DNA of 47,108 nt. It comes from Rhodospirillaceae bacterium. GTDB taxonomy: Bacteria; Pseudomonadota; Alphaproteobacteria; Azospirillales; Azospirillaceae. A program made the translations under genes and the position numbers. The stretch is taken from positions 1 to 47,108 of the forward strand of contig JAJUIU010000023.1 in the NCBI GenBank assembly GCA_029267445.1, in the 5' to 3' direction. Each line of letters begins with the position of its first letter. Position 1 is the stretch's first letter. The notes under the pieces are model-generated. The model was not told the origin of the DNA, did not search any database, and was given only the letters and a program-made list of their open reading frames with translations. Shown here piece after piece: positions 27,269 to 32,005 of this stretch.

Positions 27269-28960
27269 ATGCTGAAGGCCTTCCAGAACCTGCCCATCGT
27301 CCAGAAGCTTCTGCTTCCATTGCTTCTGATGGGGGCGCTGACCTTCGGCACGTCACTTTACGCCCTGTCGCAGATGCGCGCCGTCGGCGCCGAGTACCAG
27401 CGTCTGATCGATGCGGAGGTCGCGGCGACGGAGGCGATCCTGCGGGCGAACGGCACGGTGGCGCAGATCGGCCGCACCGCCTTCATCATGCTTGCCGAGA
27501 CCGACGGCTTCATCCTGGACGGGCTGAAGGACGAGATCGCGCTGGCGGCGGACGAGCTGGAGGGGCATCTGGCGGGCGTGCAGAAGGCCTTTCCCGAGTT
27601 CGCCGGCGAATTGGACGGAGCCCGGGCCGACTTCGCGGAGTTACTGAAGATCATCGAGACGTCGCGCCAGGCCATCCTCGCCGGGAATGCCGAGGCGGGT
27701 GCGCGCAACCTCGTCGACTATGGCGACCCCCGGCTGATCGACGGGCTGGACAAGCTCGCCGGCGTCACGCGCGGCCTGGAAGCGCGCCGCGCCTCGGCCG
27801 AAGCCGTGGCGCAGACCCGATACGCCGACGCCCTGTCCGTCACGCTCGCCTGGGCGGTGGGCGGCACGCTGCTGTTCATGGCGCTGGCCCTCTGGCTGAC
27901 GATCTCCGGCGTGTCGCGACCGCTGCGCCGCGTGGTGGAGATCACCTCCCGTCTGGCCGAGGGCGATACGAGTGTCACCGTCACCGGCGCCGACCGGAAG
28001 GACGAGATCGGCGCCGCGGCGCGCGCCGTCGCCGTGTTCCAGCGGAACATGTTGGAGACGGAGCGGATGCGGACCGGGCAGGAGGCGATGAAGGCCGCCG
28101 CGGAGGCAGAGAAGCGCGCCGCCCTGGCCCGCCTCGCCGAGGAGTTCGAGGCGGCGATGGCGGCCGTCGTCCGCAGCGTGGAGGGCTCGGCCCGCCGGAT
28201 GCGCGAAACAGCCCAGGGCATGCACGCCGTGGCCGACCGGTCGAGCCGGCAGACGGCGGAGGTGGCGGAATCCGCCGAGCGTGCCGCCGCCAGCATCGAC
28301 ACCGTCGCGGCGGCGGCGGAGGAGCTGAGCGCCTCCATCCAGGAAATCTCCGCACAGGTTGCGGAAAGCGCGCGCATCGCGGGCGAAGCGGTGGACGAGG
28401 CCGAGCGCTCCAACACGACCGTGACGGGCCTGGTGGAGGCCGCCAGCCGCATCGGCGACGTCGTCCGGTTGATCAGCGACATCGCCGGACAGACGAACCT
28501 GCTGGCGCTGAACGCCACGATCGAGGCGGCCCGCGCGGGCGAGGCCGGCAAGGGCTTCGCCGTGGTGGCCAGCGAAGTGAAGAACCTCGCCAGCCAGACG
28601 GCGAAGGCGACGGAGGAGATCGGCCAACAGATCGCCGCCATCCAGTCGGTCGCCGGCAGCGCCGCAGACGCGATCAAGGGCGTGGGCGGCACCATCGGCC
28701 GGATCAGCGAGATCGTCACCACCATCGCCGCCGCCGTGGAGGAGCAGGGCGCGGCCACCGGCGAGATCGCCCGGTCGGTGGCGGAGGTCGCGGGCAACAC
28801 CAAGGCCGTCAGCGCCACCATCGGCGAGGTGTCCGCCGCGGGCGCCGAGACCGGCGGCATGGCCGGCGACGTGCTGTCGAGTGCGGAGGAGCTGGTCGGC
28901 GAGTCCGAAGCCCTGCGCCAGCAGGTGGCCGGGTTCGTCGCCAGGGTCCGGGCGGGCTAG
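27269..28960 (+). CDS. Methyl-accepting chemotaxis protein
   Basis: 563-aa chemoreceptor. First membrane helix about 13-35, periplasmic helical sensor to about 190 (no Cache/PAS features; four-helix-bundle-like), second membrane helix about 194-214 (VTLAWAVGGTLLFMALALWLTI), HAMP (about 215-268) and signalling domain with the hairpin tip IAGQTNLLALNATIEAARAGEAGKGFAVVASEVKNLA. No C-terminal pentapeptide tether. Senses an unknown periplasmic signal and controls CheA. No che genes are near. Confidence 0.95.
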   Translation: MLKAFQNLPIVQKLLLPLLLMGALTFGTSLYALSQMRAVGAEYQRLIDAEVAATEAILRANGTVAQIGRTAFIMLAETDGFILDGLKDEIALAADELEGHLAGVQKAFPEFAGELDGARADFAELLKIIETSRQAILAGNAEAGARNLVDYGDPRLIDGLDKLAGVTRGLEARRASAEAVAQTRYADALSVTLAWAVGGTLLFMALALWLTISGVSRPLRRVVEITSRLAEGDTSVTVTGADRKDEIGAAARAVAVFQRNMLETERMRTGQEAMKAAAEAEKRAALARLAEEFEAAMAAVVRSVEGSARRMRETAQGMHAVADRSSRQTAEVAESAERAAASIDTVAAAAEELSASIQEISAQVAESARIAGEAVDEAERSNTTVTGLVEAASRIGDVVRLISDIAGQTNLLALNATIEAARAGEAGKGFAVVASEVKNLASQTAKATEEIGQQIAAIQSVAGSAADAIKGVGGTIGRISEIVTTIAAAVEEQGAATGEIARSVAEVAGNTKAVSATIGEVSAAGAETGGMAGDVLSSAEELVGESEALRQQVAGFVARVRAG

Positions 28961-28978
28961 GGGGCTACGCGACCGGAC

Positions 28979-29011
28979 GTCCGATTCCGGACAGACAGTT
29001 CGGAATCGGAC
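28979..29011. promoter_or_regulatory. Tandem upstream activator sites (GTYCG-N4-CGGAC) before the FtsX-type permease
   Basis: Two 14-bp palindromes: GTCCG-ATTC-CGGAC (28979-28992) and GTTCG-GAAT-CGGAC (28998-29011), 19 bp apart centre to centre (about two helical turns, same face). Together they also form an 11-bp inverted repeat. They lie about 70 bp upstream of the predicted -12 element of the sigma-54 promoter, a normal place for enhancer-binding activator dimers. Confidence 0.7.
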
Positions 29012-29055
29012 ATTGCACCGCGTGTGTTTCTCCGCCGAATCAAAGGCTTGGCGTG

Positions 29056-29071
29056 TGGCAAGAGGGTTGCA
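29056..29071 (+). promoter_or_regulatory. Sigma-54 (-24/-12) promoter of the FtsX-type permease gene
   Basis: TGGCAAGAGGGTTGCA matches TGGCACG-N4-TTGCW at all conserved positions except one (C to A), with the required 10 bp between GG and GC. Predicted start of transcription near 29082, about 22 bp before the ATG. Confidence 0.78.
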
Positions 29072-29103: not shown

Positions 29104-31542
29104 ATGCAGCAGGTCCTTCGCCCGTTCCGCCGCCACAGGCTGTTCGCCGCGATCAATCTTCTGGGCCTCGCGATCGGGCTGGCGGGTTTTCTCCTGGTCG
29201 CACTCTACGTGCTGGGAGAGGCCAAGGTTGACCGCTTCTTCTCCGAACCCGACCGTCTATATCGCGTCGCCAATACCCTGAACCTGCCTGGGAGGCCGCC
29301 CTTTGTCTTGCGGGACAGCGGGGCCAACATGGCGCCCATTCTGGAGCGGGAGTTCCCCGATGTGGAGCGCGCCGCGCGCCTGCAGCCCCAAACCGCGACC
29401 TTCCTCAAAGGCTCCGAAACGCTCCGTGTGGAGATCGCCTGGGCGGATCCCGACCTGCTGAAAGTGCTCGACCTGCCGCTGGCGATGGGAGATCGGGACA
29501 CGGCACTTGCCAAGCCGGACGGCTTAGTTCTGGACCCGGAACTGGCCCGCAGGTTGTTCGGCGACGCCAACCCGCTTGGCCGGACTGTCGAACTCGAAGG
29601 CGGAATCCTTATGACGGTCACCGGCCTCATGGAGGAGCTGCCGGCGGCCAGCCATCTCACGATCGAGGCGCTGGCCGCCGATGCCGCCCGGGGGCCCGCG
29701 TCCTTTGACCGGCAGACGGCACCGTCCTGGAGCCAGGGTGGCGCCATGACATACCTGCGGCTTGCGCCCGGCGCCGATCCGGAGGCGCTTCGGGCGAGGC
29801 TGCCCGATTTCGCGAAACGGCATGCCACGGGCCTGCCGCCGCCGGACATGATGCCGAACTTCCTGGTCCTGCGGCTCGACCGTGTCAGCGACATCTACCT
29901 GCACGCGCCGGCCGTCAACGACATGGCTTCGGGCGACGCGCACATCCTCAGCATTCTGGTCGGCGTCGCCCTGCTGATCCTCGCCATCGCCATCGTCAAC
30001 TACACGAACCTTGCGACGGCGCTGGCGATGCAGCGGGCGAAGGAGGTCGGCGTGCGGAAGGTGTCGGGCGCGCTCCGGCGGCAGCTGATCGCGCTGTTCC
30101 TGGGTGAATCCATCGGTATGGCCCTGGCCGCGACGCTCCTCGCGCTGGGACTGGTTGAGCTGCTGATGCCCGCCTTTAACGCCCTGGTGGAACGCTCCCT
30201 CTCCCTCCGGGCCGTGTTGATGCCGGAGTTCCTGGTCCTGCTGATGGCGACGCCGCTGATCGTTGGTTTCCTGGGAGGTCTCTATCCCGCCGTCATCCTG
30301 TCCAGCCACCGGCCAGCCGACGTGCTGAAGGGCCGTGGCGCGTCGCCCGGGGCGGGCCGGCTCGCGGCGGTGCTCGTCGTGGCGCAGTTCGCCGTCTCCA
30401 TCGCGCTTGTGATCGCCACACTGACCATCCAGCGCCAGGTGGACCACGCCCGCACCGCGAACCTGGGGTACGCCACCGACCAGCTTGTCTTCATCGGCAA
30501 CCTCCCGCACGAGGATGACCGGGTCCTGACGCTTCGGCGGCAGCTGGAGGAGTATCCCGGCTTCACCGCTGTTACGCTCTCCACCATCGTGCCGTCCCAA
30601 CGGAACGAGAGCATCAGCTCGGTCAACGTGATCGGCCGGGACGTTCCGCCAGGACAGGAGCCGATGGTGTCCCAATGGTCGATCGATCTGAACTTCCTTG
30701 AGACCTATCGCATACCGCTCATCGCCGGTTCCGGCCCACCGCCGGACTGGTCACCGGCGGAGAGCCGGATCGATCCGGAGGACGGCCAGCCGGTCGAAGC
30801 CGCGAACCGCTACCTGCTGCTCACCGAGGAGGCGGTGCGCCGGATCGGACTTGGCACGCCGGAGCAGGCGCTGGGCACCCAGCTCGCCATCGGCCCGGAC
30901 GGGCCCCGGTTCCCCTCGACCGTCGTCGGCGTGACCTCGGATCTGCGCTTCCGGACGGCCCGCCACGCGCCGGAGCCCATGGTTCTGACATTCTCTGAGA
31001 CCGGGCATTTCGTGACGGTGCGGCTTGGCCCCGGCGACCCCCGCCCGCACCTGGAGTTCCTGGACCGCGCCGTCTCCGCTGTCTTTCCCGAGGTCAAGGA
31101 CGTCCGCCGCCTGTTCGTCGACGCGCAGATCGAGAACCTTTATCGGGCGGAGGCGAAGCAGGCCCAGATCTTCGCCACCTTCGCGTTGTTGGCGATCCTG
31201 CTGGCGAGCATGGGCCTGTTCGGGCTGTCGGCGCTGGCGGCGGCGCGCCGGACGAAGGAGATCGGCATCCGCCGCGTCGTCGGTGCCGGCGTTTTGGACA
31301 TCGTCCGGCTGCTGGCTTGGCAGTTCACCCGGCCGGTCCTGCTGGCGAACCTGCTGGCCTGGCCCGTCGCCTGGTGGCTGCTGTCGCGCTGGCTGGAGCA
31401 GTTCGCCGTGCGGATCGAACTCGGACCGACGCCCTTCGTCCTGGCGATGAGCGCCGCCCTGGTCGCCGCAGTCGCGACCGTGACCGTGCACGCGGTGCGG
31501 GTGGCGCTGGCGCCACCAATCCAGGCGCTGCGCTACGAGTAG
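29104..31542 (+). CDS. ABC transporter permease, FtsX/MacB superfamily (duplicated, 812 aa)
   Basis: Inner-membrane permease with two MacB-core/FtsX units. Unit 1: helix 17-38, extracytoplasmic MacB-like core (about 45-275), three helices (about 280-405). Unit 2: helix about 425-443, second core (about 450-680), three helices (about 685-800). Conserved cytoplasmic loops read RAKEVGVRKVSGALRRQLIALFLGES and RRTKEIGIRRVVGAGVLDIVRLLAWQF. Such 800-aa permeases usually partner with an ATPase, a HlyD-type adaptor and a sigma-54 response regulator; none is present here, so it is an orphan gene. Regulated from the sigma-54 promoter just upstream. Confidence 0.9.
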   Translation: MQQVLRPFRRHRLFAAINLLGLAIGLAGFLLVALYVLGEAKVDRFFSEPDRLYRVANTLNLPGRPPFVLRDSGANMAPILEREFPDVERAARLQPQTATFLKGSETLRVEIAWADPDLLKVLDLPLAMGDRDTALAKPDGLVLDPELARRLFGDANPLGRTVELEGGILMTVTGLMEELPAASHLTIEALAADAARGPASFDRQTAPSWSQGGAMTYLRLAPGADPEALRARLPDFAKRHATGLPPPDMMPNFLVLRLDRVSDIYLHAPAVNDMASGDAHILSILVGVALLILAIAIVNYTNLATALAMQRAKEVGVRKVSGALRRQLIALFLGESIGMALAATLLALGLVELLMPAFNALVERSLSLRAVLMPEFLVLLMATPLIVGFLGGLYPAVILSSHRPADVLKGRGASPGAGRLAAVLVVAQFAVSIALVIATLTIQRQVDHARTANLGYATDQLVFIGNLPHEDDRVLTLRRQLEEYPGFTAVTLSTIVPSQRNESISSVNVIGRDVPPGQEPMVSQWSIDLNFLETYRIPLIAGSGPPPDWSPAESRIDPEDGQPVEAANRYLLLTEEAVRRIGLGTPEQALGTQLAIGPDGPRFPSTVVGVTSDLRFRTARHAPEPMVLTFSETGHFVTVRLGPGDPRPHLEFLDRAVSAVFPEVKDVRRLFVDAQIENLYRAEAKQAQIFATFALLAILLASMGLFGLSALAAARRTKEIGIRRVVGAGVLDIVRLLAWQFTRPVLLANLLAWPVAWWLLSRWLEQFAVRIELGPTPFVLAMSAALVAAVATVTVHAVRVALAPPIQALRYE

Positions 31543-31552
31543 TGAGAAGCCC

Positions 31553-32005
31553 TCACACCTCCACCAGCTCCAATCCTGCCTCGCGGAAGGACTGGAGCAG
31601 GCGGAAGGCCTGGTGGGGGGCCGCGAGCCAGGTGGACGGGCTGAAATCCTGTTCCAGGAAGGGGCTGTAGCCGGGGCGGTCGGCCTCCGGGATGCGGTCC
31701 ACGTTGGCGAAGCCCATCGACCAGCCGTCGAACGCCCGATCCTGCGCCTTGAACTTGATCAAGGTGGTCACGTCGGCGTGGCGGGGGTCACGCATGACCC
31801 GGGCGTACAGGTCCATGACGGCGGGGCGCGGCCCCTCCAACGCCTGCATGAAGCGGCCATCCCGGTAAAGCAGCAGCCCGGAGACGCCGGTCGCGATGTT
31901 GTTGGCGCGGCACTGGCGCAGCAGGTCGAGGAGGTCCCCGTCCCCCATGGGCCGGACGGCGCGGCTGATATAGACGAGGCAGAGCAGGCCTGGATCGTCG
32001 GTCAT
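31553..32005 (-). CDS. BLUF-domain blue-light photoreceptor
   Basis: 150-aa stand-alone BLUF protein binding FAD. Photochemical residues are all present: Y12 (LVYISRA), N36 (NNIATGVSGLLLY), Q54 (RFMQALEGP), with W95 and M97 in DGWSMGF. No output domain is fused; the C-terminal 45 residues form the usual capping helices. Short BLUF proteins act by binding partner proteins. The permease gene ends 10 bp from its stop, convergent. No obvious partner gene nearby. Confidence 0.93.
   Translation of the reverse strand: MTDDPGLLCLVYISRAVRPMGDGDLLDLLRQCRANNIATGVSGLLLYRDGRFMQALEGPRPAVMDLYARVMRDPRHADVTTLIKFKAQDRAFDGWSMGFANVDRIPEADRPGYSPFLEQDFSPSTWLAAPHQAFRLLQSFREAGLELVEV

Follow-up and report, generated by a model that had tools for sequence, protein, structure and literature searches.

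Many FtsX/MacB-type permeases have neither a linked ATPase nor a known trigger, and little is understood about them. One such permease is encoded in the window analyzed here, positions 1 to 47,108 of contig JAJUIU010000023.1 of a Rhodospirillaceae bacterium. The initial annotation had proposed a sigma-54 promoter and two palindromic activator sites upstream of this 812-aa permease, and all three elements were found where it had placed them:

27269..28960, + strand: gene for a methyl-accepting chemotaxis protein, stop codon 18 bp 5' of the first operator
28978..28993, + strand: predicted distal operator CGTCCG-ATTC-CGGACA, core GTCCG-ATTC-CGGAC at 28979-28992 (matrix score 18.9, top in the window)
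28997..29012, + strand: predicted proximal operator AGTTCG-GAAT-CGGACA, core GTTCG-GAAT-CGGAC at 28998-29011, starting 59 bp 5' of the sigma-54 box
29056..29071, + strand: predicted sigma-54 (-24/-12) promoter box TGGCAAGAGGGTTGCA, GG-N10-GC spacing, one mismatch
29104..31542, + strand: gene for the 812-aa FtsX/MacB-type ABC permease (Pfam MacB_PCD and FtsX)
31553..32005, - strand: BLUF-domain (blue-light sensor) gene, convergent with the permease gene

The box shows the annotated GG-N10-GC spacing and single mismatch (TGGCAA in place of TGGCAC) and lies just 5' of the permease ATG at 29104, from which it is separated by 32 bases. With the predicted +1 of the permease transcript at ~29082, the operator centers fall at about -97 and -78, where conserved paired dyads provide, as judged from sequence, the upstream enhancer sites expected of a sigma-54 promoter. 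Both operators had been described as 14-bp palindromes, which is accurate for the distal core, a perfect dyad that matches on both strands; the proximal core, GTTCG..CGGAC, is a dyad with one altered arm. Because the chemotaxis gene ends at 28960 and the BLUF gene is convergent downstream, the permease gene forms a single-gene unit, as annotated, and the chemotaxis gene is outside the regulon unit.

The permease itself consists of two MacB_PCD-FtsX halves with eight transmembrane (TM) helices and no ATPase domain; Pfam recognized one MacB_PCD domain and two FtsX stretches. An AlphaFold2 model (mean pLDDT 85) displayed two repeats, in each of which a periplasmic domain is preceded by one TM helix and followed by three, and its best fold match in the PDB was E. 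coli YbbP (of YbbAP), followed by MacB, with LolCDE and BceAB-S lower. By its domains and the matching fold of the model, the protein is a MacB/FtsX (type VII) ABC permease.

The sigma-54 box alone was not significant, as the window holds 12 matches at two mismatches or fewer versus 17.4 expected. The operators, in turn, were far more discriminating: single GTYCG-N4-CGGAC sites occur about 38 times in the 4.23-Mb genome, pairs no more than 25 bp apart only twice, in the window and at positions 1840-1870 of contig C22, with ~0.003 pairs expected by chance. Both pairs stand 5' of FtsX-type permease genes, and the second adjoins a gene for a sigma-54 response regulator, the very combination for which the initial annotation had suggested scanning the genome. 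In a scan of the window with a weight matrix trained on related genomes only, the two sites took ranks 1 and 3, and the pair-plus-box arrangement appeared in none of 40 randomized windows. Scans of the same genome for half-sites with a sigma-54 box remained at background (7/3 versus control 4/3; 6/3 versus 3/4), so we limit the regulon members claimed in this genome to C18, C22 and C119. Across 385 genomes of the class, the strict pair GTCCG-N4-CGGAC was found in this genome and one other only, as the pattern is too strict for variants; a pattern with GG-N11-GC in place of GG-N10-GC gave two matches in 84,980 genomes, a figure that only shows its chance rarity. Separately, perfect sigma-54 boxes, both without an operator, occur at G000:C13:18722-18789 and C135:2800-2875 (L184, L193), preceding a 300-aa ORF that begins MVAFALSARPPESQ and a 362-aa ORF, respectively, and perhaps belong to other sigma-54 regulons.

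We then compared operator and permease across a family sample of 82 genomes, 18 of which carried the permease family (called at E below 1e-30). The composite operator, defined as TGTCCG-N4-CGGACA-N-TGTCCG-N4-CGGACA with up to three mismatches, was present in 18/18 permease-bearing versus 2/64 other genomes (Fisher 3e-16, uncorrected for phylogeny), and the same operator read backwards, as a control, in 0/82. The two matches without a permease (G006:C1:25508-25540 and G044:C76:99564-99596, genus g3) are a direct repeat of TGTCAGGGCACGGACA, occurring twice, 17 bp apart, and are probably unrelated to the permease system. An ortholog of the regulator encoded on C22 was found once each in 16/16 permease-bearing and in 0/5 permease-lacking genomes tested, counts that are likewise uncorrected for shared descent. 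Occurrence is patchy even within genus g11, where permease, operator and regulator are all missing from G071 and G075.

In a phylogeny, the orphan permeases formed one clade (15 rows, support 100/98), apart from the cluster permeases. The initial annotation had stated that absence of the palindromes from all homologous promoters would refute it; all ten orphan-clade promoters, that is, the window and 9/9 orthologous ones, carry the operator pair and a GG-N10-GC box. Genes upstream differ among the orthologous loci, so this conservation is not synteny drag. Taken together, the sequence evidence indicates that the switch 5' of the window permease, a predicted operator pair with a sigma-54 promoter, is almost certainly real. 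Another FtsX-type permease, the nearest paralog outside the orphan clade, lies at a contig edge (G000:C79:285-2786, L033), with no operator or box in its 278 bp up to that edge; a sigma-54 activator different from the C22 regulator is encoded ~13 kb away (C79:16252-16749).

The spacing of these elements is informative in its own right. Of 22 permease promoters, 21 have a proximal operator that starts 59-62 bp 5' of the box, and in the remaining one it starts 72 bp 5' of it; within the ten orphan-clade promoters, the distance is 59-61 bp, with a single case of 72 bp, 11 bp or about one helical turn further. In promoters of small ORFs belonging to the regulon, described below, it is about 133 bp. 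Operators thus look phased against the promoter, with distances of 59-62 bp, 72 bp (plus one turn) and ~133 bp (plus seven turns). The two operators, in turn, are indeed 19 bp apart in the window, although their placement on one helix face, as annotated, was not supported, since 19 bp corresponds to ~1.8 turns and almost all relatives have 17 bp. With 18 and 23 bp also occurring, and ~21 bp outside the family, a common helix face for the two operators does not appear to be required.

The window sites carry one and two mismatches, versus mostly none or one in relatives, and together with the unusual 19-bp spacing this means that activation could be weaker here or partly lost. The window promoter might even be a former regulon member now in decay, its permease no longer strongly controlled, and TGGCAA in place of TGGCAC would fit such a history. 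We consider this unlikely, as the proximal site is placed exactly (59 bp), the box keeps GG-N10-GC and matches at 9/11 positions, spacing varies elsewhere too and the permease reading frame is intact.

The initial annotation had placed a dedicated response regulator, the ATPase and the adaptor outside the neighborhood. All three are encoded on C22, together with the same paired operators and a predicted sigma-54 promoter. The "missing" partners are thereby found, and the kinase lies on a further contig:

C22 (L032), 164-1606, - strand: gene for an NtrC-type sigma-54 response regulator (receiver, sigma-54 AAA+, Fis HTH)
L032:1622-1637: single TGTACG/TGTCCG-type dyad (equivalents in L083, L085, L101 and L157-L162)
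L032:1997-2164: 55-aa ORF with one TM helix, between the promoter and the adaptor gene
C161, 112-1452, at the contig edge: kinase gene, own-genome copy, product 79% identical to the kinase of G054

The regulator matched Pfam Response_reg, Sigma54_activat and HTH_8, all above cut-off; its best NCBIfam match, the PEP-CTERM response regulator (TIGR02915), was rejected at 363.3 bits, below the cut-off of 502.6. Divergently from it and beyond an intergenic region that carries TGTCCGAAATCGGACA, CGTCCGGGAACGGACA and TGGCACGGCGCTTGCG follow the 55-aa ORF, an HlyD-type adaptor, an ABC ATPase and three permeases. Operator centers at -96/-79 from the predicted start of this operon reproduce the -97/-78 geometry of the window. 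The window permease, labeled "orphan" in the initial annotation, is better described as an unlinked member of a regulon. Directly 5' of the regulator gene, every locus checked carries the single dyad, which suggests autoregulation. Of nine related loci, eight have the kinase gene directly next to the regulator gene, and the ninth is cut short by the end of its contig. In this genome, the regulator gene lies at the edge of C22 and the kinase gene at that of C161, which probably reflects an assembly gap between the two. In the G054 kinase, hydropathy placed TM helices at residues 16-34 and 38-56, joined by ~3 residues and thus leaving almost no extracytoplasmic sensor loop; a weak PAS match and then a HATPase domain follow. 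The genome encodes seven strong sigma-54 activators (the C22 regulator and six others), from which we infer that rpoN is present.

Homologs of the regulator (59-66% identity) were found in six other genomes of the class-wide 385-genome sample. Wherever sequence suffices, a permease-ATPase-adaptor set is encoded there divergently from regulator and kinase, and most of the intergenic regions hold TGTACG/TGTCCG-type dyads and a sigma-54 box. The composite operator, at up to three mismatches, was absent from these genomes, which carry single dyads or variants spaced ~21 bp. In a replicon of the gammaproteobacterium Pseudoalteromonas piscicida, a single case, the genes are arranged in this order too, and one dyad, TGTACGATATCGTACA, is present. 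As far as sequence can tell, the regulator-operator-exporter module thus probably predates the family; systematic searches for unlinked permeases and small ORFs covered the family only, and it is there that both were observed.

With seven sigma-54 activators in the genome, another enhancer-binding protein or a regulator acting as repressor might use the dyads, leaving the C22 regulator a bystander. Yet the C22 regulator alone adjoins the operators and co-occurs with both permeases and operators, a TGTACG/TGTCCG-type single site lies just 5' of its gene in all loci checked, and the same regulator lineage flanks this dyad outside the family too, which makes a bystander role very improbable. Finally, we reject as barely credible that the inverted pair is an intrinsic terminator hairpin of the chemotaxis gene accompanied by a chance sigma-54 match: a hairpin with 14 bp in its stem and 5 nt in its loop (-26.5 kcal/mol, z -4.8) can form 18 bp past the chemotaxis stop, and the box alone is not significant, but there is no T-run, a terminator scan found none, the N4 cores of relatives are mostly non-complementary between sites while the dyad of each site is kept, and the distance to GG-N10-GC is fixed in relatives even though upstream genes differ. 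The sequence at 28978-29071 is thus very probably a sigma-54 promoter with a two-dyad enhancer that places the permease under a two-component system encoded elsewhere (C22:164-1606 and C161:112-1452).

Further predicted members of the regulon encode small membrane proteins. In seven genomes of genus g10, paired operators and near-perfect boxes (TGGCACNNCCCTTGCT) stand 5' of 45-aa ORFs, which are often arranged in tandem (L122-L129) with a promoter for each repeat and in some cases followed by a second ORF of 48-53 aa. Versions of 47 aa occur in G054 (L131) and in the genome studied here, the latter combining TGTCCGGAAACGGACA with TGGCACGGCGGTTGCT:

C119 (L034), - strand: 47-aa single-helix ORF, preceded by an operator dyad and by a sigma-54 box that matches at 11/11 positions (L034:6058)

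Common to the 45-47-aa ORFs is a hydrophobic helix at the C terminus in which E, A and N are conserved, and the small membrane ORFs tested had no Pfam match. Across 21 copies of the small ORFs, lengths and ends are strictly kept and silent changes are not dominant; they are likely translated. The 55-aa type, distinct from these, precedes the adaptor gene in most family clusters, and the C22 copy had no match in Pfam or NCBIfam.

Architecture, conservation, co-occurrence and fold can be read from the sequences themselves; regulator binding, sigma-54 dependence, kinase input and sharing of the C22 ATPase we infer. The two-TM kinase, without a sensor loop of its own, would take its input within the membrane, the transporter or membrane-active compounds being the likeliest sources, and would phosphorylate the NtrC-type regulator, its gene neighbor in relatives. 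Regulator dimers could then occupy both TGTCCG-N4-CGGACA dyads, centered at about -78 and -97, oligomerize and, with ATP hydrolysis, open the closed complex of E-sigma-54 at the predicted promoter. One signal would thereby induce the C22 adaptor-ATPase-permease operon, the window permease and the C119 47-aa peptide gene, all of which share operators. The unlinked permease may draw on the C22 ATPase induced alongside it, perhaps together with the C22 adaptor, for mechanical work in the periplasm by which an envelope-active compound is extracted, exported or sensed. For signal, substrate and ATPase sharing, this proposal draws on relatives and on Bce-type modules.

Operator, activator, kinase, ATPase, adaptor, unlinked permeases and small proteins are here connected by sequence alone. 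Linking these parts makes the inducing signal and ATPase sharing directly testable, and the operator serves as a searchable regulon marker. In NCBIfam, permease, adaptor and ATPase came closest to ADOP (TIGR03434) and DarBCD (NF038008/038010/038007), all below curated cut-offs; the window permease was rejected both as ADOP (264.9 bits, cut-off 622.3) and as the DarB exporter permease (NF038008; 106.9 bits, cut-off 700).

We know of no sigma-54 control of ybbAP. YbbAP (PDB 9ge6) resembles the present system in having a single-chain, double-repeat FtsX/MacB permease of ~800 aa and a separate ATPase; the window permease differs in that it lacks a linked ATPase, and it shares 14% identity with YbbP at a TM-score of 0.48. 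Predicted -24/-12 promoters 5' of COG0577/FtsX-like permeases have been described in Gammaproteobacteria, Opitutia and Bacteroidia (PMC12316311, PLoS One 2025), in a promoter scan whose main text calls this link the first evidence of its kind and lists no alphaproteobacterial enrichment for COG0577. A keyword search of that main text turned up no named regulator, operator or kinase, nor any unlinked permease or small ORFs, and literature searches for the combination of these elements matched this study alone. The sigma-54/FtsX-like permease link is thus already reported, and the regulator, operator, kinase and peptides found here did not appear in the literature searched.

In the Bce model, a two-TM kinase, unable to sense alone, reads its transporter (PMC5985334, PMC10314905), and the small membrane protein VraH, which modulates one Bce-type transporter (PMC5985334), provides a precedent for the small ORFs. 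BceRS-BceAB (PMC10314905, PMC3023708) shares with the present system a loop-less two-TM kinase, an FtsX/MacB-fold permease and a separate ATPase. The G054 kinase follows this pattern, its two TM helices, as placed by hydropathy, leaving no room for a sizeable extracytoplasmic loop; the window permease, with eight TM helices and two periplasmic domains, does not match BceB, which has ten TM helices and a large extracellular domain between TM7 and TM8. Unlike Bce, the system described here has an NtrC/sigma-54 regulator, an HlyD adaptor and a Gram-negative host, and the likeness does not amount to established membership by sequence. We tentatively suggest, as a possibility that still falls short of the probable, a Gram-negative counterpart of Bce: a kinase and sigma-54 regulator that would read a multi-permease YbbP/MacB-type transporter and induce it along with unlinked, ATPase-sharing permeases and arrays of small tuning proteins, forming an undescribed alphaproteobacterial envelope-defense regulon.
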